Shown: in pieces, positions 7,498-26,914 of the stretch
Layout of the letters: every line of letters begins with the position of its first letter
Position numbering within the stretch: the first letter of the stretch is position 1
Origin: a virus
Strand: one strand, 5' to 3'
IMG/VR virus record: IMGVR_UViG_3300018009_000015
Location: 1-26,914 of that record
DNA length: 26,914 nt
Notes under the pieces: generated by a model
The model's database searches: none
What the model was told of the DNA's origin: nothing
The model's input: only the letters and a program-made list of their open reading frames with translations
Program-made: the position numbers and the translations under genes

Positions 7498-9789
7498 ATG
7501 GCAGAACTACCAGAATATCGCAAACAAAGAGCAATAGAACCAGCACCTGTAGTACAAGGCGTACGTGAAGCATACAATGCAACTGGTGAAGTTTCATCTA
7601 TGATTGCTGAAATTGGAAGTCAGATTGCACAAAATGCTGCAAATGAAATGGCTGCCATCAAAGGTCAACAAGCAGCTGAGAAAAATCCAGGAAAAAAATT
7701 ACTTCCAGCATGGACTGAAAGCGATAAACATTTTCAGGAAGCATTTAAGAAAGAAGCCTATAGCAATTCAGCATTCGCAGCAACGCAATTAATACAGAAG
7801 CAACAATTGCTTTTTGAGCAGAATCCTAGCACTTTCACATTACAACTGTACGAGAAGAATCTTATCCCAGGGCTGCAAAACATTATAAATAATTCCCCGG
7901 AAGGCATACGCAATCAATTGCAGAAATCTACAATGGAATCTTACAACCAGAGTTATTTCGATGCAACAAGAGCCGTGGTTGCAAAAAATCGTGCAGACAT
8001 GATTAGCAATACTAAAGCTCGAATTGATGAGAACTATAAGAATATATACAACAGTGCTAAAGATGGATTTGGCATAGATGCTAAGAATAAATATGACACT
8101 CTTATGGCTGACATCTCATCATTAAAGGCCAATGGAGGAGCTGATGCTCAGCAAATAGCCACCATGAAAGACACTGCCAAGAACATGTTGTCAACTGGTA
8201 AATATAACGGAATGGTTGCCACTGCATATAGAGGTGGAGAGCAAGATGCTGCTGATTTCATAAGAGATTTTGCAAATAATAAACCCTCCAATCGAACACC
8301 GATAGAACATGAATTCATTGTGAAGAATATGTTGAACGAATATACTAGATTGCAAGGAGAAAGTGCAGACAGCAAACATTTAGCATTAATGGACTATAAG
8401 AATGATATTGATCAAAACACATTAACGCCAACTAAATTAGCAGAAGCTCCACAAGTATTAGGTGATGCAGGATTCAAGCAATTCACAAAGGACTATAACA
8501 AAGCTGTCAGGGATAACGCTATTTCGGCTGAGATATCTTTTGCTGCATTTAATGGTCAACAGCTAGGCGGATATACCACAGAACAGGTAAACAAAGCATT
8601 TGATGGAACGGTAAAAGCTGCACAGCAAGCATATGCTGCTGCTGGCAAAGAATTTGGATATATACAAAGAATACAATTAGCTGAACCCTACAAAGATAAT
8701 AGACTACATATTGTTGGTGAAACCAGAAACAAAATATTGCGTGGTTCAGCTCAAGATATTGCTGAGGCGTCTATTGCAATTAAGCGATCTGACGCAAAAC
8801 AATCTGGTTATTTAGATGATATTGGAGATGAGGCTAGAGCAATAGCGGTGATGTTTGAGGTTAATTCTGTAGATAAGACTAAAAACATAGAAGATATTGC
8901 TGTAGAAACAAGGAAAAAAATAAGAGATATTTCTCCTGAAGACTTGAAGCAAAGAGGGATTAAATTTGCTCAAATGACAGCTAAATCAGGTGCGTGGATG
9001 AGCAGCAATCCTGGAGAAAAATACAAGTTGTATGATACGAATGCACTGCAAGATAAATTATCTAATGATCTGGGTTTTGGTCATTGGGTCGGCAGCCCAG
9101 ATAAAATTCCTACACAATTAGTTGCTGAATACAAAGCCGCGATGAAACATGGATATGACCTAACTGAAGATTTGGAATATGCTCACGATAACGCTATTAG
9201 ATTGCTGAAAATGAAATCCGGTAAATCTGACATTAATGGCGAATCTCGGCCAACACTTTTTCCATTGGAAAAAACATTCCCATTCAAATCTATCACTAGA
9301 TTGAGAAACGATGCTGTTGTCGAAATATCAGATAAATTTGTAGAGCAAGAAAAGTTATTCACTAAAGGGAAAACGTCAAGCTACTACAAGTTTGCCAACG
9401 ATGCATTGAAGCCTGGGCACAAGGAAAACTATATATACGACAACCCCGTATTCAACGGAAAAAAAATCAAGATTGTCAGAGTGTACAAAAATAGGAATAA
9501 TGAAACAGTGGAACAACCAGGATATATGGAAATTGGGTATGATCAGCTTACCGGAATCAACACGGGTGGAAATCAATTTCCATCATACCCCATTCAATTT
9601 GCTCCTGAAAAGGGTAAAACAATAGATATCTACGATCCAAATGAAACATCTGTAGAGTTGCGTTTTTATCCAGCGTTAGCTGACAAAAAAGAAGCTGAGA
9701 TAAAGAAGAATAGAATCATTCATGACAAATTTCGGAAGATAGCATTTCAATTAGAGTTAGATGCAGACTTTGAGTTCGGCGAAAGATAG
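7498..9789 (+). CDS. Internal virion protein C-like ejection protein (763 aa)
   Basis: This large, hydrophilic, mostly alpha-helical protein has no signal peptide or membrane span. It begins 'MAELPEYRKQRAIEPAP' and then has an Ala/Gln/Met-rich helix (residues about 20-60), a common opening of podovirus gp15-like internal proteins. T7 gp15 is 747 aa, close to this length. It sits between the gp14-like and gp16-like genes, as in T7, where gp15 and gp16 form the periplasmic conduit and genome-pulling assembly. No catalytic motif is visible. The assignment depends on order, length and composition rather than on a clear domain. The Shine-Dalgarno is weak (GGAT at 7487-7490). The stop lies 9 nt before the next start, so the two are coupled. 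Confidence 0.7.
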   Translation: MAELPEYRKQRAIEPAPVVQGVREAYNATGEVSSMIAEIGSQIAQNAANEMAAIKGQQAAEKNPGKKLLPAWTESDKHFQEAFKKEAYSNSAFAATQLIQKQQLLFEQNPSTFTLQLYEKNLIPGLQNIINNSPEGIRNQLQKSTMESYNQSYFDATRAVVAKNRADMISNTKARIDENYKNIYNSAKDGFGIDAKNKYDTLMADISSLKANGGADAQQIATMKDTAKNMLSTGKYNGMVATAYRGGEQDAADFIRDFANNKPSNRTPIEHEFIVKNMLNEYTRLQGESADSKHLALMDYKNDIDQNTLTPTKLAEAPQVLGDAGFKQFTKDYNKAVRDNAISAEISFAAFNGQQLGGYTTEQVNKAFDGTVKAAQQAYAAAGKEFGYIQRIQLAEPYKDNRLHIVGETRNKILRGSAQDIAEASIAIKRSDAKQSGYLDDIGDEARAIAVMFEVNSVDKTKNIEDIAVETRKKIRDISPEDLKQRGIKFAQMTAKSGAWMSSNPGEKYKLYDTNALQDKLSNDLGFGHWVGSPDKIPTQLVAEYKAAMKHGYDLTEDLEYAHDNAIRLLKMKSGKSDINGESRPTLFPLEKTFPFKSITRLRNDAVVEISDKFVEQEKLFTKGKTSSYYKFANDALKPGHKENYIYDNPVFNGKKIKIVRVYKNRNNETVEQPGYMEIGYDQLTGINTGGNQFPSYPIQFAPEKGKTIDIYDPNETSVELRFYPALADKKEAEIKKNRIIHDKFRKIAFQLELDADFEFGER

Positions 9790-9798
9790 GAAACACGT

Positions 9799-12700
9799 AT
9801 GATCGTAGGCAGAAACGAACTAGAGGTGGGATTTTCTACTCCAACAGACTATACCGCAGAAGAACCAGAAGAAAAAAAATTATCAACTTTTGGTGAAACA
9901 TTGCTCATGGTAGCTAAATCAAATATATTACCTCTCCACAACGAAATACAAGGCCTGAAAAACTCCAAGGCTACATGGGCATACCTAAGAAGATTTAATG
10001 AAGGAATTAACGCGTTCTCATTCCTGAAAAATGTAATCAAGCCATTGATGGTTCCGTTGCCTATGGATCAACCATTTGAGGTTCAAGTAGACGATCTACT
10101 ACACTTTCCCGAAAAACATTGGCCATATCTATTAGATTCGATCAACACTGAAGACCTAGAAAGCAGAAAAAATAAACTAAATAGAGAATACAATGATATA
10201 CGTCTCATTAACACATTGGGAACATTTGAGAAGTTGTTGTTGGGAGCAACAAATATGGCCATCAGCCCTAGCACATATCTATCGGGTGGATTAACGGCAT
10301 TTCGTGGAGCCATTCAAGGGGCTACTGTATTGCAGTCGGCATACAATGTCGCTAAAGCAGTTGCCCCAAAAGTTGCATTAAGTTCAGCTATTACCAATTT
10401 ACCGTCATATCTCAACAGACCAACAATAAGTGAAGAAGATTATTTGCTAGGAACCTTGGTTAATGCTGTTGTTGCCGGGGCTGCGTATGGGTTAGGTGGT
10501 GCTGGACAACATGCATTACAGTCTAATGTAAGAGTTGCTATGGTTGCTGACTACAAGTACAACCCAAATGTAACTCACGTTGTTAGCGGAAAAACTGGAA
10601 AGATGACAGGGGCACACGTTCATTTTACTGATGAAAATGGAATGGTCACCACCTCATCCACGCCTGCAAAAACTACAGCAGTCAACGTACCATCGATACC
10701 TACAAGAGAAGATTTGCTTGCACAACTAGCAGCTCAAGCTGAAAAGATGAAGGCTAATGGTGTGACCATGGAGGAGTTGGAATTAATCCACAACGAAGCA
10801 AATAAATTATTGGGTCAAGCTAAGGAGGAAACTATACCCCTAACTCCATCGGAAAAACTTCATCAACAAGCAACAGCACTGTTGCAAGAAAATAGCAACC
10901 TAAGCAACCTCACAGAGGAACAAATTCTTACATTAACTGAAAATGAATTATCGCAATACTATAAACACAACATAAATGGAGTTAACGATACCTTCATGAA
11001 GACGTTTGGGTTTGCTGCGTTACCTGTAGTGAAAGGATTAACCAGTCCATTTCCTGTCGTGAAAGAATTCACACAAAAATTATTTGGCAGCAATTTCATC
11101 ATAAGTAATATGACCCATCCTGACATACAGGAAGTAGAGAAGAAAATATTTGCTATCAAAAATCGGATAAAGAAAGTTGCTATCACTTCTCCATCAGATA
11201 AGGAATATCTGCAAGCAGAACTAGCTTCCCTGAAAGCTGAAAGAAAAGAAGTAATTCAACGGCTTGATAGAGAAGGATTACTGTATAGCGGTACACCAGA
11301 AAATTTGCCATCAGCTCAAAGAGAAGCTGCCGTTTGGGTCAATGATTTTCATTTTCTCATGTATGAATTTAGGCAAGATTATCTCAAATATATTGGACTT
11401 GGAGATATAGAAACTAACTTACCGTTTGTGGACTTGTACGCAAAAGCCAAACAAGTGCTAACTCACTCCAACAAAGGCAGGACAGCAACCCAACAAGCAC
11501 TTGATTCCGCATTACATCAAGCTTATGCCAGCGGGGATGTTCAAACTATTATGGACATACACAAAAATCCTGATTTTGAGGCTGGCGATGCTATATTGAG
11601 TTGGGAGGATATGGGAAAAGAAGTTTGCTATGCACTAAGGCGCAACGAACAATCCAGGATACCTCTTGCCGCTGAAACCGCCAGAAAACTTAGACAAAAA
11701 ATATTCAACCCACTACTGAAACGAGCCAGAGAATTAAATGTTTTACCTGAGTATATGGATGATTCTACTGCCATTAGCTATTTATGTAGGGTGATGGATA
11801 AAGAAAAACTAACCGATATAGGCAGGGAAAATCTTATTAAAAGATTAACCATTTATGCAAATGGGTTGAATATGAAAACATCAGCAATAAGAAAACCTAT
11901 AGAAGACATCATCAAAGAAGCTAAAGACACACAAATTCAAATCAAGGATGAAATAGCAAAAGGCGACAAGAAAGATAAATTGCTACTTCATAGTTTGATG
12001 AATAAATTGCAATCTGCACGAAAACAAAAGATTCGACTACGAGATGAACTACAACAAAAAATTGATACTGGCACATTAGATTTGACAAAGGATGAAGTAG
12101 ATAACTATGGTCTTACTCAAGCATCATTAATCGACTCACGCTTCTCGTTAACTGCCGTACAGAAGAAAGAGTATGATGAGTTAACTAAAGATTTAGACAC
12201 TGCAAGAGAAGATTTAGCTCAACTGAAAAAAAACGCACTTGCAGAAGAAATGAAGTTGTTAGGTGAAGAAATAAAGCAAGAGCTGACATCGATATCCAAT
12301 GAAATAAAAAAAGAAAAAAACTCCCTCAAAAAAAAAGAAGCTAAACAACGCTTCATCATCACCAAGGATTATACGCAAAAAATAAACACCTTGAACAAAG
12401 AGCTTGAAATAGATCTAAAGAAGATAGACAAAGACAACAAACAAGAAATGAAGTCTTTGCAACAACAAGTGAAAGAAGAATATGCAAGACTAAATAAATC
12501 TCAACGTATAAATATCACAGAAAAAAACAAGCAAATTGTAGAACAACAAATAAAAGAATATGCCAGCACAATTGATGTGCTAGAAAAAAAAATAAATGAG
12601 CTTCCAAAAATAACCAATCAATTGATCAAAGATATTACCTCGTCAACCAAAAAAAGAATAAAAGAGTTGGAAGCCACAGCAAAGGAATTACACAAAGATA

Positions 12701-19122: not shown

Positions 19123-19162
19123 GTAAATATATTTAACACAATTAACACAAGGACGTGAAATT

Positions 19163-19237
19163 ATGAAAGACAAAGCAGAAAAACGCAAAGAAGAACGCAA
19201 AAGAGAAGAACGGAAAGCAGAAAAACGCAAAAAATAA
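19163..19237 (+). CDS. Highly charged 24-aa mini-protein
   Basis: This open frame starts at ATG 19163, preceded by AAGGA (19149-19153, 9-nt spacer). It reads M-K-D-K-A-E-K-R-K-E-E-R-K-R-E-E-R-K-A-E-K-R-K-K-stop, almost pure Lys, Glu and Arg, and would be a single charged helix. The stop is 1 nt before the next start (19239), and the VRR-NUC gene has no separate clear ribosome site. The mini-ORF may therefore act as a translational lead-in for the nuclease as well as, or instead of, making a useful peptide. Short purine-rich ORFs can also be chance. Confidence 0.45.
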   Translation: MKDKAEKRKEERKREERKAEKRKK

Positions 19238-19238
19238 T

Positions 19239-19751
19239 ATGCGCTACGACAATGGACCCAATGAATGGCATGTGCAATTTGAGTTCTTCAAGTGGTTGGG
19301 GCCGACTTTCCCTGAATTGAGGGAAATAGCTTTTTCCATATCAAACGAGAAGGGTCAACGAACCGTGCAAGAGATGAGCAGATTAAAGATGACAGGGCTA
19401 ACTGCTGGTGTCCCTGACGTTTGCATCTGTTACCCTACGAAGCTCTATCACGGTATGTTCATTGAGTTCAAGAGTGCTATCGGTAAACTATCTGATGTGC
19501 AAAAAGAAATGCTAGACAGACTAGAAAGTCGTGGCTACAAGTGTGTAGTGTGCTATTCCACAGGTGAAGCAATAAACGCTGTGCTAGACTACCTCAAGGG
19601 GAATTTGCCAATGAAAAAAATCTCACCAATGAAAGTGTTAGCGGCACCAGGAAGTACATCAAGAAGTACACCAAGAAGTACACCAAGAAGTACACCAAGA
19701 AAGCTCACCAAAAAACAGCTAAAGTGGTTGACAATCTCACAGCAAATGTGA
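19239..19751 (+). CDS. VRR-NUC domain nuclease (170 aa)
   Basis: Residues about 5-120 match the VRR-NUC branch of the PD-(D/E)XK nucleases: an N-terminal 'NEWHVQFEFFKWL' helix, 'LTAGVPDVCICYP' with Asp60, 'GMFIEFKSAIGKLSDVQKEM' with Glu76, Lys78 and Gln88, and 'GYKCVVCYSTGEAINAVLDY'. This is the full catalytic set of a small phage-type VRR-NUC enzyme, which may resolve DNA branches or cut structured DNA before packaging. The C-terminal 50 residues are a basic tail with four Ser-Thr-(Ser/Pro)-Arg units encoded by 12-nt tandem repeats. Its place just before the lysis and packaging genes suggests a role in DNA maturation. That role is inferred; the domain is clear. Confidence 0.85.
   Translation: MRYDNGPNEWHVQFEFFKWLGPTFPELREIAFSISNEKGQRTVQEMSRLKMTGLTAGVPDVCICYPTKLYHGMFIEFKSAIGKLSDVQKEMLDRLESRGYKCVVCYSTGEAINAVLDYLKGNLPMKKISPMKVLAAPGSTSRSTPRSTPRSTPRKLTKKQLKWLTISQQM
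19652..19699 (+). repeat. Four 12-nt tandem repeats in VRR-NUC tail
   Basis: Units of AAGTACAYCAAG lie at 19652-19663, 19664-19675, 19676-19687 and 19688-19699; the last three are identical. They encode Ser-Thr-Pro-Arg-like units of a basic tail. The copy number is likely to vary by slippage without breaking the frame. Confidence 0.9.
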
Positions 19752-21238: not shown

Positions 21239-23449
21239 ATGGATGCAAACAACCGAATAAAAATTTATCAACAAACAAATAAACAGCAGATAATTCAGCA
21301 GAAAGTAATTCATTACCCAACATTTATTCCTAGACACTACCAGGAAGAATTGCTGGATGCATTTTTTCTGCTAAAAATGAAGCGCTTCTACTATTTGTGC
21401 CATAGACGTGCTGGCAAAGACATGACTTGTTGGAACCTTATGTGGGGGGCAGCATTGCAGCGAGTGGGTACGTATTTATATCTACTTCCACAGCACAATC
21501 AGTCTCGAAAAGTAATCTGGAAAGGAATGATCGGAGATGGTCGCAGTTTTGTGTCCATGATACCCAAACAGTTAATTAACAAAATAAATAACACCAACAT
21601 GTCAGTTGAATTGATCAACGGTTCGGTTATTCAGCTTGGCGGTGGAAAAAACTTTGATACGTTGATGGGAACAAATCCAGTCGGCATTGTATTGTCAGAA
21701 TTTGCATTACATTCCCCGTTGGTGCTTCCATACTTATCTCCGATACTTGTAGAAAACGGCGGTTGGTTAATCTGCCAAACAACTCCTCGCGGCAAAAATC
21801 ATGCATACAAAACATTTCTAGCAGCAAATAATGATGAAGATTGGTTTGTGCGTAGATGGTCTATTGCCGAAACAAAAAAACATGACGGCACGCCTGTTAT
21901 TTCTGATAAACAAATTGATGCCGAAAGGCGTAGCGGAGTATCTGAAGAATTAATTCGACAAGAATGGATGCTGGATTGGAATATTGGCAATGTGGGCGCA
22001 TATTTCACACAAGAACTTGATGATGCGGAGTATGATGGGCGCATCTGCAATTGGACGATCAATCCAAACTTGCCTGTCTATACTTTCTGGGATTTAGGAA
22101 TATCTGATGCGACAGCTATTTGGTTCATGCAGCCAGATGGCTATGATTTGAAAATGATTTACTACTACGAAGATACTGGAAAAGGGTTTCATCATTACGC
22201 ATGTGTGTTGGATGATTTGAAAGCCAGATTTGGGTTTAAATATAAATATCACTATGCGCCACACGATGCGAAAAATAGACAATGGGGATACACCCCAAGA
22301 AGTACGCTAGCATTGGCCGCCGAGTGTGGAATTACATTTTTGTTAGTACCAAATACCTCTATAGAGACCAGAATACAGGCTGCCAAAGCAATATTTCCAC
22401 AAGTTTGGATCCATCAGGCAAACTGTGCATTGGGGCTTGAAGCACTGAGAAGCTACATGCGGGAGTATGATGAAGAAAATAGATGCTTCAAGGATAAACC
22501 TTTTCACAATTGGGCCTCTCATTGTTTTACTGGCGATACGAAAATAATTACACGAAAAGGAATATGTCAACTAAATAATTTACCAAGGATAGGAGAGGTG
22601 CTAACGATATGTGGATGGAAGCAATACCGGAATGCGAGAATAACACAGAAAAATGCCCAACTTGTGGAGGTTGTGTTCAAAGACGGAACTACGGTGAGAT
22701 GTACGCCGGAGCATTTGTTCATGACGGAGAAAGGGTGGAAATACGCAAAACACCTAACGAAGAATTCATTGATCCGGTCTTCCTTGACCCAATCGTGCAA
22801 TACTTCAATGGAAGCATCTACCGAATATGGCCAAAAGAAGTTTACTTCAAGAAGGGCGGGGCAATACTGCATAGAGAAGTTTGGAAAAGCGCGTTTGGTG
22901 AAATTCCTGAAAAATGCCATATTCACCATAAGGATGGCAACGTGCAAAATAATTTGTTGTCAAACCTTGAGTGTTTACCTGCAACTGAACACTTATCCCA
23001 GTCTTGGCGCATTAGACATGAGGAAACACCTTTTTCCTTCTCAGCAACAGCTAGAGAAAAAGCCACCCTGTGGCACAAATCAGAGGCAGGTAGATTGTGG
23101 CACAAACGATCAGCAGAAAGAACTAAAAATTGGACCAAATGGAAAAAAGAAGATAGGCCATGTGAATTTTGCAAAAAAACATTTGATTGCATTGTTCGGA
23201 AAAGCGGACACATGCAAAAGTTTTGTTCCAACGAATGCAGAGCATCTGCATATAGAGAGCGTAAGAAAGCTGGATTACAGAAATGATGTATGGTGTTTGA
23301 GCGTGCCAGAAGTTGAGCATTTTTCTTTGTCGAATGGAGCTATAGTACACAATTGCTCTGACTCATACTGCTATTTTGCGGTTACATGGAAAGAATCATT
23401 TCAGCGACCTGATCTGAATATGCCAACTACGTATCAAATGGATTTTTGA
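21239..23449 (+). CDS. Large terminase subunit (TerL) interrupted by an intein
   Basis: The extein parts (residues 1-428 and 706-736, 459 aa after splicing) make a full TerL. Walker A is 'CHRRAGKDMT' (Lys60). Walker B is 'GIVLSEF' (Glu154, with Ser where Asp is usual). The coupling motif is 'CQTTPRG' (181-183). The nuclease motifs are 'FWDLGISDATAIW' (Asp285), 'YAPHDA' (Asp343) and the spliced 'WASHCSDSYCYF' (Asp708). The protein packages DNA into the prohead: an ATPase motor plus a cutting nuclease. Residues 429-705 are an intein. No Shine-Dalgarno is evident before the ATG at 21239, which follows the upstream gene by 21 nt; the upstream gene may couple its translation. The last extein segment ends at a convergent gene pair. 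Confidence 0.93.
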   Translation: MDANNRIKIYQQTNKQQIIQQKVIHYPTFIPRHYQEELLDAFFLLKMKRFYYLCHRRAGKDMTCWNLMWGAALQRVGTYLYLLPQHNQSRKVIWKGMIGDGRSFVSMIPKQLINKINNTNMSVELINGSVIQLGGGKNFDTLMGTNPVGIVLSEFALHSPLVLPYLSPILVENGGWLICQTTPRGKNHAYKTFLAANNDEDWFVRRWSIAETKKHDGTPVISDKQIDAERRSGVSEELIRQEWMLDWNIGNVGAYFTQELDDAEYDGRICNWTINPNLPVYTFWDLGISDATAIWFMQPDGYDLKMIYYYEDTGKGFHHYACVLDDLKARFGFKYKYHYAPHDAKNRQWGYTPRSTLALAAECGITFLLVPNTSIETRIQAAKAIFPQVWIHQANCALGLEALRSYMREYDEENRCFKDKPFHNWASHCFTGDTKIITRKGICQLNNLPRIGEVLTICGWKQYRNARITQKNAQLVEVVFKDGTTVRCTPEHLFMTEKGWKYAKHLTKNSLIRSSLTQSCNTSMEASTEYGQKKFTSRRAGQYCIEKFGKARLVKFLKNAIFTIRMATCKIICCQTLSVYLQLNTYPSLGALDMRKHLFPSQQQLEKKPPCGTNQRQVDCGTNDQQKELKIGPNGKKKIGHVNFAKKHLIALFGKADTCKSFVPTNAEHLHIESVRKLDYRNDVWCLSVPEVEHFSLSNGAIVHNCSDSYCYFAVTWKESFQRPDLNMPTTYQMDF
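22591..22598 (+). promoter_or_regulatory. Internal Shine-Dalgarno for the overlapping HNH gene
   Basis: AGGAGAGG lies 10 nt before the ATG at 22609, inside the intein coding sequence, where it encodes Ile-Gly-Glu in the terminase frame. No other start of the terminase frame nearby uses it. It is stronger than the site in front of the terminase itself. Confidence 0.65.
22609..23286 (+). CDS. HNH endonuclease in alternate frame inside the intein, probable homing nuclease (225 aa)
   Basis: This gene lies wholly within the intein in the -1 frame relative to the terminase. Residues 88-127 are an HNH_3-type domain: 'HREVWKSAFGEIPEKCHIHH' followed by 'KDGNVQNNLLSNLECL' and 'TEHLS', with His106, His107, Asp109, Asn111 and Asn115 as expected metal and catalytic residues. 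Residues 185-210 form a zinc finger (Cys185-x2-Cys188 ... Cys206-x3-Cys210) of the type found at the end of phage homing nucleases. The first 60 residues overlap intein block B in the other frame and include Cys16-x2-Cys19-x2-Cys22. The TGA stop at 23284-23286 falls where intein block F begins. The internal ribosome site supports the 22609 start; GTG at 22795 is a later alternative. Confidence 0.85.
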   Translation: MWMEAIPECENNTEKCPTCGGCVQRRNYGEMYAGAFVHDGERVEIRKTPNEEFIDPVFLDPIVQYFNGSIYRIWPKEVYFKKGGAILHREVWKSAFGEIPEKCHIHHKDGNVQNNLLSNLECLPATEHLSQSWRIRHEETPFSFSATAREKATLWHKSEAGRLWHKRSAERTKNWTKWKKEDRPCEFCKKTFDCIVRKSGHMQKFCSNECRASAYRERKKAGLQK

Positions 23450-23470: not shown

Positions 23471-23510
23471 TACGCTTGAATGTTTACTACGCTTCAATGG
23501 CTACGCTTCA
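23471..23510. repeat. Three short direct repeats at the convergent gene junction
   Basis: TACGCTTGA (23471-23479), TACGCTTCA (23488-23496) and TACGCTTCA (23502-23510) lie between the terminase stop and the end of the leftward gene; the third includes its stop codon. I see no good bidirectional terminator hairpin here. Confidence 0.6.
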
Positions 23511-23758
23511 GTTTCCATGTAATACATACCTTCATGATTAGCAGTATTGGCATTTTGCACTTCTTGTGCGCCGGAATATTGTCTACAATGAGAGCACATC
23601 CATAGCATTACTTCCCAGCGATTATTTTGTGTGGAAGCATTAGCGGCAACAAACGTATGAATGCCATCAGGATGTAAATGACACCTTGAGTTGTCTAGCC
23701 ATTTTTTAGTCAAAAGTTTTTCATTCAAAGATTTTTCAGTCAAGGATTCTTTGGTCAT
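23501..23758 (-). CDS. Hypothetical small protein with Cys/His pairs (85 aa)
   Basis: I do not recognise the family. The N-terminal 25 residues are Lys/Leu/Glu/Thr-rich with internal repetition ('KESLTEKSLNEKLL'). Next comes a segment with Cys-x-x-His-x3-His ('CHLHPDGIH') and a later 'WMCSHCR', which could bind one zinc ion. I place the start at 23758 rather than the ATG at 23767. It overlaps the stop of the upstream gene as ATGA, and AAAAGG lies about 9 nt upstream. This indicates translational coupling to the 110-aa gene. It is the last leftward gene and converges with the terminase. Confidence 0.6.
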   Translation of the reverse strand: MTKESLTEKSLNEKLLTKKWLDNSRCHLHPDGIHTFVAANASTQNNRWEVMLWMCSHCRQYSGAQEVQNANTANHEGMYYMETEA

Positions 23759-24087
23759 TTCTCGCATCCTTTTTCAATGTCATCATGAAATACATGCATA
23801 AAATGCGGTTCATCGGATAGTTCCCGTTTGATTTCTTGAATATGATGTTTCACTTGATGCAATTCGGTAATTATTTCCCAGCAATTGCCTTTGGTTTCTA
23901 GTTTTTCCGCGCAACCATCAAGTTTTGCTGGCAAAATTTTCATGAGATTTGCTATTTTGAATAAGCGTCTGTTGATGCATTTTTCGGATTCACTTTGCTC
24001 GCACTCATTCGACTTGTACTCGTCCGACTGGTTCTTGTATGTCTGAAATTCTTTTTTGCAATCGCAATTATTTTGTTCATGTTCCAT
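23755..24087 (-). CDS. Hypothetical Cys/Glu/Lys-rich helical protein (110 aa)
   Basis: No family is recognised. The protein starts 'MEHEQNNCDCKKEFQTYKNQ'. It has Cys residues scattered through the N-terminal half, then an amphipathic helical region ('IANLMKILPAKLDGCAEKL', 'ITELHQVKHHIQEIKREL') and a His-rich end. The start at 24087 is chosen over the upstream ATG at 24156 because GGAG stands 7 nt before it and the extension adds an unlikely hydrophobic peptide. It is coupled by ATGA overlap to the next gene. An extended -10 promoter candidate and a hairpin lie in its leader. Its orientation and neighbours place it with the early or recombination genes. Confidence 0.55.
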   Translation of the reverse strand: MEHEQNNCDCKKEFQTYKNQSDEYKSNECEQSESEKCINRRLFKIANLMKILPAKLDGCAEKLETKGNCWEIITELHQVKHHIQEIKRELSDEPHFMHVFHDDIEKGCEK

Positions 24088-25788: not shown

Positions 25789-26144
25789 AGTATTCTCCGT
25801 TGATTTCATTCCATTGATTTCATCAAGTTTACCTGATATATATTTTTTGTCCAGAAATAGTTTGGTGGAAATGGCAGAAATAATGGTATTTAGATCGATA
25901 GCTAGAGGTGGGATTTGTTCTTCAGAACAAGTCCTACATGAATTGATAAAACTGTGTGATATATTGATCGGCACTGCTGTGGTGGAAACGAAGCGCGGCT
26001 GGAGATTACCCCAACCGCTAACACAACTTCACACAACAAAAAAGGAAATAGACATGTAGACAATCATTAAACAAAACCAACAAACTTAATCAACCCCTTG
26101 ACCATCACTTGCGTGATTGTCTACACAAAAGGAATGAACGAATT
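25789..26144. promoter_or_regulatory. Divergent control region between recT and the replication gene
   Basis: This is a gene-poor stretch separating leftward recT from the rightward winged-helix gene. It holds TTGTTC-TTCA-GAACAA (25915-25930), a 6-bp inverted repeat of operator shape. It also holds a perfect 12-bp inverted repeat, TGTAGACAATCA (26055-26066) / TGATTGTCTACA (26114-26125), enclosing 47 nt. ATCAC-TTGC-GTGAT (26104-26117) is nested at the right arm. TTGACC (26098-26103) is a possible rightward -35, with a poor -10 overlapping the right arm. Both strands are open to some length here, but neither has a convincing start. Confidence 0.5.
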
Positions 26145-26914
26145 ATGCCTCACAAAAGAAACGATGTCAACCACCCAGCAATAAGCATTAGCACGGTAAC
26201 TGGCAGTGCTAACACACTTGTTTACCCTTCATTGCAAAGCGATAGCCAAAACATAATCAAACGATACCCCGGGAGAGGATATGCTGTGATCCCTAATTCC
26301 ACCTTGGAAGATTTGCGGATCAAAGATTCCCTGGGTTTGCTAGTTTACCTTGTCGGTAAGCCAGATGACTGGACAGTGAGGCATGCTGATTTGACAAGAA
26401 GGTTCGAGTGGAAGAAACACAAAATATACAGATTACTGAAAGAACTTGAGCTAGCCGGTTATCTAAGAAGAACATTCATGAGGGATGAAGGTGGTCATGT
26501 GATTGGTATAGTGAGCCAAATTGCCAACGAATCTATATTTGACTATGAACCGCTACCAAATAAATTCAACAACGAAAAAACTCAATCCACAGATGAATTT
26601 TCACCACTCGCTGAAAATCAGGAAGCGGGTTTACCGCACGCTGATTTCCTGCATGCAGGTAAACTGGATGCAGGAAATCAACACGCATACAAAATAAAGA
26701 GTACTTCTACAAAAGAAATATTTTCTACAAACAAAACAGATCCAACTAGAGAGATCACCTCCAAGTCCAAGTTGGAAGGATGTCTTGAAAAAGAAAAGGC
26801 AGAAGCAGCAGAAGAAGGGGCAGCAAAAGTAGGTGCCAGCACTACCACAGAAACTTCCTCACCGCCAAACCTAACCAGAACGCAACTAAGGCAAGATAAT
26901 CCAAAACCACCATC
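26145..26914 (+). CDS. Winged-helix phage replication protein, 3' end outside window
   Basis: The open frame from ATG 26145 runs without a stop to the window end (at least 256 residues). Residues about 42-115 read 'GRGYAVIPNSTLEDLRIKDS', 'LGLLVYLVGKPDDWTVRHAD', 'LTRRFEWKKHKIYRLLKELE' and 'LAGYLRRTFMRDEGGHVIGI'. This is the winged-helix domain common in phage and plasmid replication initiator-type proteins ('vIPN..l.D..L...A.GLL.yL...PddW'). The remainder is a low-complexity Glu/Ala/Ser/Lys linker, as in initiators with a C-terminal helicase-loader contact. AAAAGGA (26127-26133) gives an 11-nt spacer. It is divergent from recT and carries an origin-like repeat cluster in its coding sequence. 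Confidence 0.78.
   Translation, partial: MPHKRNDVNHPAISISTVTGSANTLVYPSLQSDSQNIIKRYPGRGYAVIPNSTLEDLRIKDSLGLLVYLVGKPDDWTVRHADLTRRFEWKKHKIYRLLKELELAGYLRRTFMRDEGGHVIGIVSQIANESIFDYEPLPNKFNNEKTQSTDEFSPLAENQEAGLPHADFLHAGKLDAGNQHAYKIKSTSTKEIFSTNKTDPTREITSKSKLEGCLEKEKAEAAEEGAAKVGASTTTETSSPPNLTRTQLRQDNPKPP
26613..26680 (+). other. Origin-like palindrome and iteron cluster inside the replication gene
   Basis: TGATTTCCTGCAT (26642-26654) and ATGCAGGAAATCA (26668-26680) are a perfect 13-bp inverted repeat. CCTGCATGCAGG (26648-26659) is a perfect palindrome. ATGCAGGWAA is directly repeated at 26653-26662 and 26668-26677, 15 nt apart. GGTTTACC (26628-26635) mirrors GGTAAAC (26658-26664). A TCAGGAAG (26618-26625) is a related half. 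An A+T-rich tract follows (about 26688-26745), as expected of an unwinding element. The origin role is inferred by analogy with lambda gene O. Confidence 0.5.

Follow-up and report, generated by a model that had tools for sequence, protein, structure and literature searches.

The window analysed here, that is, the whole stretch of 26,914 nucleotides, is a 26.9-kb linear virus record of a tailed phage with tail, terminase and RecT-like genes. The gene at its right edge runs off the contig, its 3' end being missing after position 26914, and because it is cut there, neither a C-terminal domain nor a loader gene can be seen. Its product matches PHROG families of replication initiators and DnaD-like loaders (best E-value 7.8e-9; phrog_428, 1.4e-10). 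Pfam yields weak matches only (MarR_2 and HTH_36), the one to HTH_36 (PF13730) reaching 13.1 bits against a curated cut-off of 25 (E-value 0.085), and HTH_36 also falls below the cut-off in all four relatives having a match; a sequence-profile search of solved structures with the initiator protein gave no match. An AlphaFold2 model of the N-terminal domain, obtained with a 39-sequence alignment as input, is most similar in fold to Geobacillus DnaB (5wtn, Z 8.4), followed among others by the RepA protein of a staphylococcal plasmid (4pql, Z 7.4), RctB (5ube, Z 7.4) and DnaD (2v79, Z 6.1). All top six fold matches are replication initiators, consistent with the PHROG matches, although Z values near 8 may reflect a common arrangement. 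The RepA_N initiators differ from the window protein in that the latter has no Pfam match to RepA_N (PF06970), the likeness being one of fold (4pql and 5kbj, Z 6.2-7.4). Judging from the profile matches and the model, the gene is a winged-helix replication initiator, as the first-pass annotation had proposed.

The predicted linker-coding DNA downstream of the winged-helix domain carries an ordered array of five 15-bp units (26604-26678) and a degenerate sixth (to 26693), each consisting of a 10-bp dyad core, CYG-N4-CRG, and a 5-bp spacer of mostly A/T (table 1). The first-pass annotation had noted a 13-bp inverted repeat, a perfect 12-bp palindrome and direct repeats spaced by 15 nt, clustered at 26613-26745 next to an A+T-rich tract. 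All of these are present and prove to be parts of a single array with the tract adjoining it; the location holds, and the array is slightly wider at its 5' end. The palindrome CCTGCATGCAGG (26648-26659) corresponds to core 4 plus a single base at either end, and the inverted repeat TGATTTCCTGCAT (26642-26654) / ATGCAGGAAATCA (26668-26680) arises from two cores. The place of the sixth unit matches that of a degenerate last unit (e.g. CCGACACTAGTAAGT) in many relatives. The half-sites of the window (n=10) include four CTG, three CAG and two CCG and are more degenerate than those of most relatives; the core CCG-N4-CGG, the commonest one in the class and not universal there, is not that of the window, which mainly has CYG-N4-CRG. 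The A+T-rich tract contains AGTACT (26700-26705) and two TTCTACAAA repeats (26705 and 26723).

Table 1. Features of the initiator gene and its repeat array, with the units in the register 26604/26619/26634/26649/26664(/26679).
Feature	Coordinates	Strand	Basis or remark
Winged-helix replication initiator gene (predicted)	26145..26914	+	PHROG matches; ATG at 26145, frame open from TTG at 26109
Winged-helix DNA-binding domain (predicted)	26253..26570	+	AlphaFold2 model, mean pLDDT 89
Putative recognition helix KKHKIYRLLKELEL	26412..26453	+	Alignment and half-site association; helix 55-67 of the model
Iteron 1, CCACTCGCTG + AAAAT	26604..26618	+	
Iteron 2, CAGGAAGCGG + GTTTA	26619..26633	+	
Iteron 3, CCGCACGCTG + ATTTC	26634..26648	+	
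Iteron 4, CTGCATGCAG + GTAAA	26649..26663	+	Core within the 12-bp palindrome
Iteron 5, CTGGATGCAG + GAAAT	26664..26678	+	
Degenerate sixth unit, CAACACGCAT + ACAAA	26679..26693	+	
A+T-rich tract, candidate DNA-unwinding element	26679..26738	+	60 bp, 73% A+T versus gene mean of 57%; directly 3' of the array

The array was scored as the sum of outer dyad pairs and unit-to-unit identity over four consecutive units, maximised over linker positions, with the maximum taken anew in every synonymous shuffle that keeps the protein fixed. The window array scores 17.0, a value reached by five of 10,000 within-gene codon permutations and by two of 4,000 draws from the phage codon usage, both with the protein fixed. 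Since synonymous shuffles match it so rarely (5/10,000), the array is constrained as DNA; the signal at synonymous sites that the first-pass annotation had named as a check is indeed there, also in relatives, while cumulative GC skew, another check it had named, gives no information, as the feature lies at the very end of the window. Taken singly and with the protein fixed, the inverted repeat (17/4000 shuffles) and the palindrome (230/20000) are both significant; plain 15-nt direct repetition is not (p about 0.1). On a grid of periods from 12 to 24 and core lengths from 8 to 14, the optimum of the window lies at (15,10), the same class as in the relatives. That short repeats have merely clustered here by chance is the least probable of the explanations considered. 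A stretch elsewhere in the window (23682-23756) does score equally high on the same measure, but, besides the five in 10,000 permutations, none of 100 Markov-simulated windows of equal composition reaches 17, and the period, core length and position agree exactly with those of a family of relatives.

Two other periodic stretches of the window may be mentioned here. The one just named, a second stretch of 15-nt period at about 23682-23756, ties the dyad score of the linker array in the real window; its part at 23697-23756 (minus strand) is A/T-rich, lacks CNG cores and encodes KESLT EKSLN EKLLT at the start of a small ORF (23501-23767). The best plain 15-nt periodicity of the whole window is found at 19153-19240, just upstream of a VRR-NUC gene (19239).

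Neither the initiator protein nor the neighbouring RecT protein of the window has close relatives in the viral and genome contigs searched, and alignments including the window sequence diverged too much for patterns to be built from them. Distant relatives of the initiator are plentiful, with at least 569 in one scan. An array of the same 15-bp unit occupies the same linker position in about 75 of 79 non-redundant relatives, usually with the core CCG-N4-CGG and followed by an A/T-rich tract. With the protein fixed, the array is individually significant in 62 of the 79 at p<=0.05 and in 43 at p<=0.01; the relatives come from a motif search and are phylogenetically non-independent, and combined p-values are therefore too small. 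Control windows in the relatives' own genes stay at chance level; the direct-repeat component of this test is biased by position for the linker, though not for the controls. The carriers are phages and plasmids of many phyla (Pseudomonadota, Bacillota, Bacteroidota and Deinococcota), and the hosts, some of whose arrays are clear by eye yet individually non-significant, include Pseudomonas, Burkholderia, Vibrio, Legionella, Sinorhizobium, Agrobacterium, Lactobacillus, Staphylococcus, Geobacillus, Brevibacillus, Parabacteroides, Alistipes, Deinococcus and Caldicellulosiruptor. No array was found in the Gordonia phage Clawz (L305), a Helicobacter prophage (L098) and a Paracoccus phage (L004). The arrays closest to that of the window are those of loci L186 and L244, both CTG-N4-CAG; they came from a scan with a CTG-core pattern, which in the loci examined otherwise yielded mostly unrelated repeats. 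A scan with a tandem GNPHV pattern gave a single, unrelated match.

The adjoining tract is likewise a feature of the family. An average over 76 arrays shows A+T content to be 0.17-0.19 higher in the 45 nt directly downstream of the array, with values close to baseline elsewhere, and the peak of the family falls within the first 60 nt 3' of the array (76 relatives). The octamer AGTACTGA occurs in the 90 nt after the array in 24 of 76 relatives, as against 1.2 expected from synonymous shuffles. In four relatives from Firmicutes (L301, L303, L308 and L299) the tract is a run of ACTAAT/AATAAT-like repeats, which might be a single-strand binding element. A different repeat is seen in a Limosilactobacillus mucosae plasmid (Lactobacillaceae; L302, 1192-1986), whose initiator gene has a CGTACATTGGAAAAA-like 15-nt repeat with a core that departs from CNG-N4-CNG and may represent another half-site class.

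Could the repeats be a feature of the protein only, that is, a pentapeptide-repeat linker born of tandem duplication, which would make the likeness of the DNA a mere consequence? It is true that the linker can be read in five-residue units (AGLPH ADFLH AGKLD AGNQH), and the direct repetition in the window, as stated above, is non-significant once the protein is fixed. We nevertheless consider this very improbable, as the dyad cores exceed synonymous shuffles, as duplication leaves the dyads, the association between half-site and DNA-binding helix (see below) and the A/T peak unexplained, and as an identical DNA core occurs in two reading frames with unrelated peptides as the outcome. Thus, CCGTATACGG followed by CTAAA is read as PYTAK in L008, and the same core followed by TAAAA, one base out of frame, as TVYGK in L061. 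The CTG cores of the window and of L186 lie in codon phase 0 and those of L244 in phase 1, which is also the phase of the arrays of L099 and of phage 80alpha. Going by the synonymous-site signal, the two reading frames and the association of half-site with helix, the array is conserved as DNA and not as peptide.

This association concerns the start of the putative recognition helix, where Arg-Asp is present with 68 of 74 CCG arrays versus one of eight non-CCG arrays (Fisher p 3e-6, uncorrected for kinship and with a small non-CCG group of eight genes). The window, which is CTG-type, carries KKHK at this place, aligned with the G-R-D of the CCG-type relatives. The association suggests that the initiator protein recognises the array carried by the gene that encodes it. 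The C-terminal partners vary, with DnaB_2 (PF07261) in L092 and L096, an O-like domain in L061 and other families in L079, so that, from the sequences, the N-terminal winged-helix reader and the array look like a module joined to differing C-terminal domains. The word 'modular', which the first-pass annotation had offered as one option, fits these similar halves with different ends well.

Iteron origins embedded in initiator genes are a known kind, as exemplified by lambda O, SPP1 gene 38, 80alpha ORF20 and pSK41 rep. One of them belongs to the Staphylococcus phage 80alpha, whose ORF20 (an SPP1 G38P-like replisome organizer) resembles the window gene in being a winged-helix initiator gene with the same 15-bp dyad array in the linker, followed by an A/T-rich tract. 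An ORF20 mutant was not complemented in trans, from which the authors infer that the origin is embedded within ORF20, and a plasmid given ORF20-21 replicates autonomously (PMC5499656). The annotated 80alpha origin (9674-9899) contains a 15-bp dyad array (p 0.002), CCAACGTTGG.AAAAA CCGTTAACGG.TAAAA CCAACAATGG.AAAAA CCGTTAATGG.TAAAT, and then a TAAT-rich tract. Unlike the window, with its CTG-type half-sites in phase 0, this array of a Firmicutes phage has CCA/CCG half-sites in phase 1. Phage 80alpha thus serves as the experimental anchor, its genetics placing the origin at the level of the gene and the array being seen within the annotated origin.

The other systems are compared at a coarser level. 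Lambda O with ori-lambda, to which the first-pass annotation had likened the locus, shares the layout, having dyad-symmetric iterons and an A/T-rich tract placed centrally in the initiator gene; the iteron type does not carry over, as the lambda O annotation (L300) has iterons of 18-19 bp at 20-24 bp spacing and of other sequence, and the window has 15-bp units. Scoring lambda O as a 15/10 array gave p 0.019 with no coherent array, which we take as noise. The pSK41 Rep protein (RepA_N) binds boxes located centrally in rep that are origin sites, its linker being dispensable (PMC5703833); compared by fold and layout, it shares with the window a winged-helix N-terminal domain of the same fold class and the central boxes. 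A pPR9 plasmid with a swapped-in phage-like PF13730 N-terminus and origin region replicates autonomously (PMC5703833), and this chimeric Rep is, by description, like the window in combining a phage-like winged helix and an origin region as an exchangeable module. SPP1 gp38 binds direct repeats inside gene 38, beside an A/T-rich unwinding element (PMC6316719), and gene 38 with oriL is, again by description, like the window in its in-gene repeats and A/T-rich element. The literature searched, with most subscription journals outside the search, contained no description of a 15-bp dyad iteron class; as a widespread identifiable type, this class and its CTG version are new as far as the searchable literature shows.

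Sequence comparison thus leads us to regard it as highly likely that the array and the A/T-rich tract are the replication origin of the phage, lying within the part of its own initiator gene that encodes the linker; the first-pass annotation had seen a candidate origin here, a reading strengthened by the conservation of the repeats as DNA in relatives, the adjoining tract and the same array in the 80alpha origin. The repeats would very probably be the sites bound by the encoded initiator to start phage DNA replication. Dyad-site arrays also act as operators and parS sites, and the same winged-helix protein might use the array for something other than initiation, for instance in partition or in repressing its own replication operon, all the more as the half-site association supports binding and not initiation. 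This we consider improbable: the array sits inside the coding linker, not at a promoter, the A/T peak lies on the same side of the array across the family, and the Rep boxes within pSK41 rep are origin sites. The 80alpha results, with ORF20 not complemented in trans and ORF20-21 supporting plasmid replication, also speak against it.

In the mechanism that we infer for an origin in this phage, the N-terminal winged-helix domain would bind the 15-bp iterons, probably as one dimer per 10-bp dyad core CYG-N4-CRG, the filled array would strain and melt the adjoining A/T-rich tract (26679-26738), and the C-terminal domain, missing here, would recruit a helicase loader, helicase or primase. Each 15-bp unit spans five codons, and units can therefore be gained or lost without a frameshift; the linker would tolerate the amino acids imposed by the array. 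More broadly, we lean towards a portable module, consisting of a winged-helix reader, a 15-bp dyad array and an A/T tract in the linker, that would occur in many phyla with varied helicase-recruiting tails, the first residues of the recognition helix setting the half-site (Arg-Asp for CCG, others for CTG, CCA or CCT).

For most uncultured phages, to our knowledge, the site at which replication starts is unknown. A 15-base repeat shared at the same place makes phage and plasmid origins recognisable from sequence, and the motif (a 10-bp dyad core plus 5-bp A/T spacer at period 15 in the initiator linker, followed by an A/T tract) would permit direct annotation of many of them. If the half-site code is true, origins and their compatibility would be predictable from sequence. 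The motif also makes the co-evolution of DNA and protein testable within one gene, and the arrays offer a ready collection of dual-coding sequences whose function as DNA would shape a protein linker.

Two further features of the window deserve mention. RecT and the initiator are encoded divergently, and the intergenic DNA that separates their genes contains a perfect 12-bp inverted repeat, TGTAGACAATCA (26055-26066) / TGATTGTCTACA (26114-26125), with its arms 47 bp apart, a possible operator pair. The terminase large-subunit gene (21239-23449, plus strand) carries an intein (PF14890, E-value 7.7e-12), and inside the intein part lies a complete HNH endonuclease ORF of 225 amino acids (22609-23286, plus strand; PF13392, E-value 2e-13), which is in a different reading frame from the intein and overlaps it over the whole length of the ORF.
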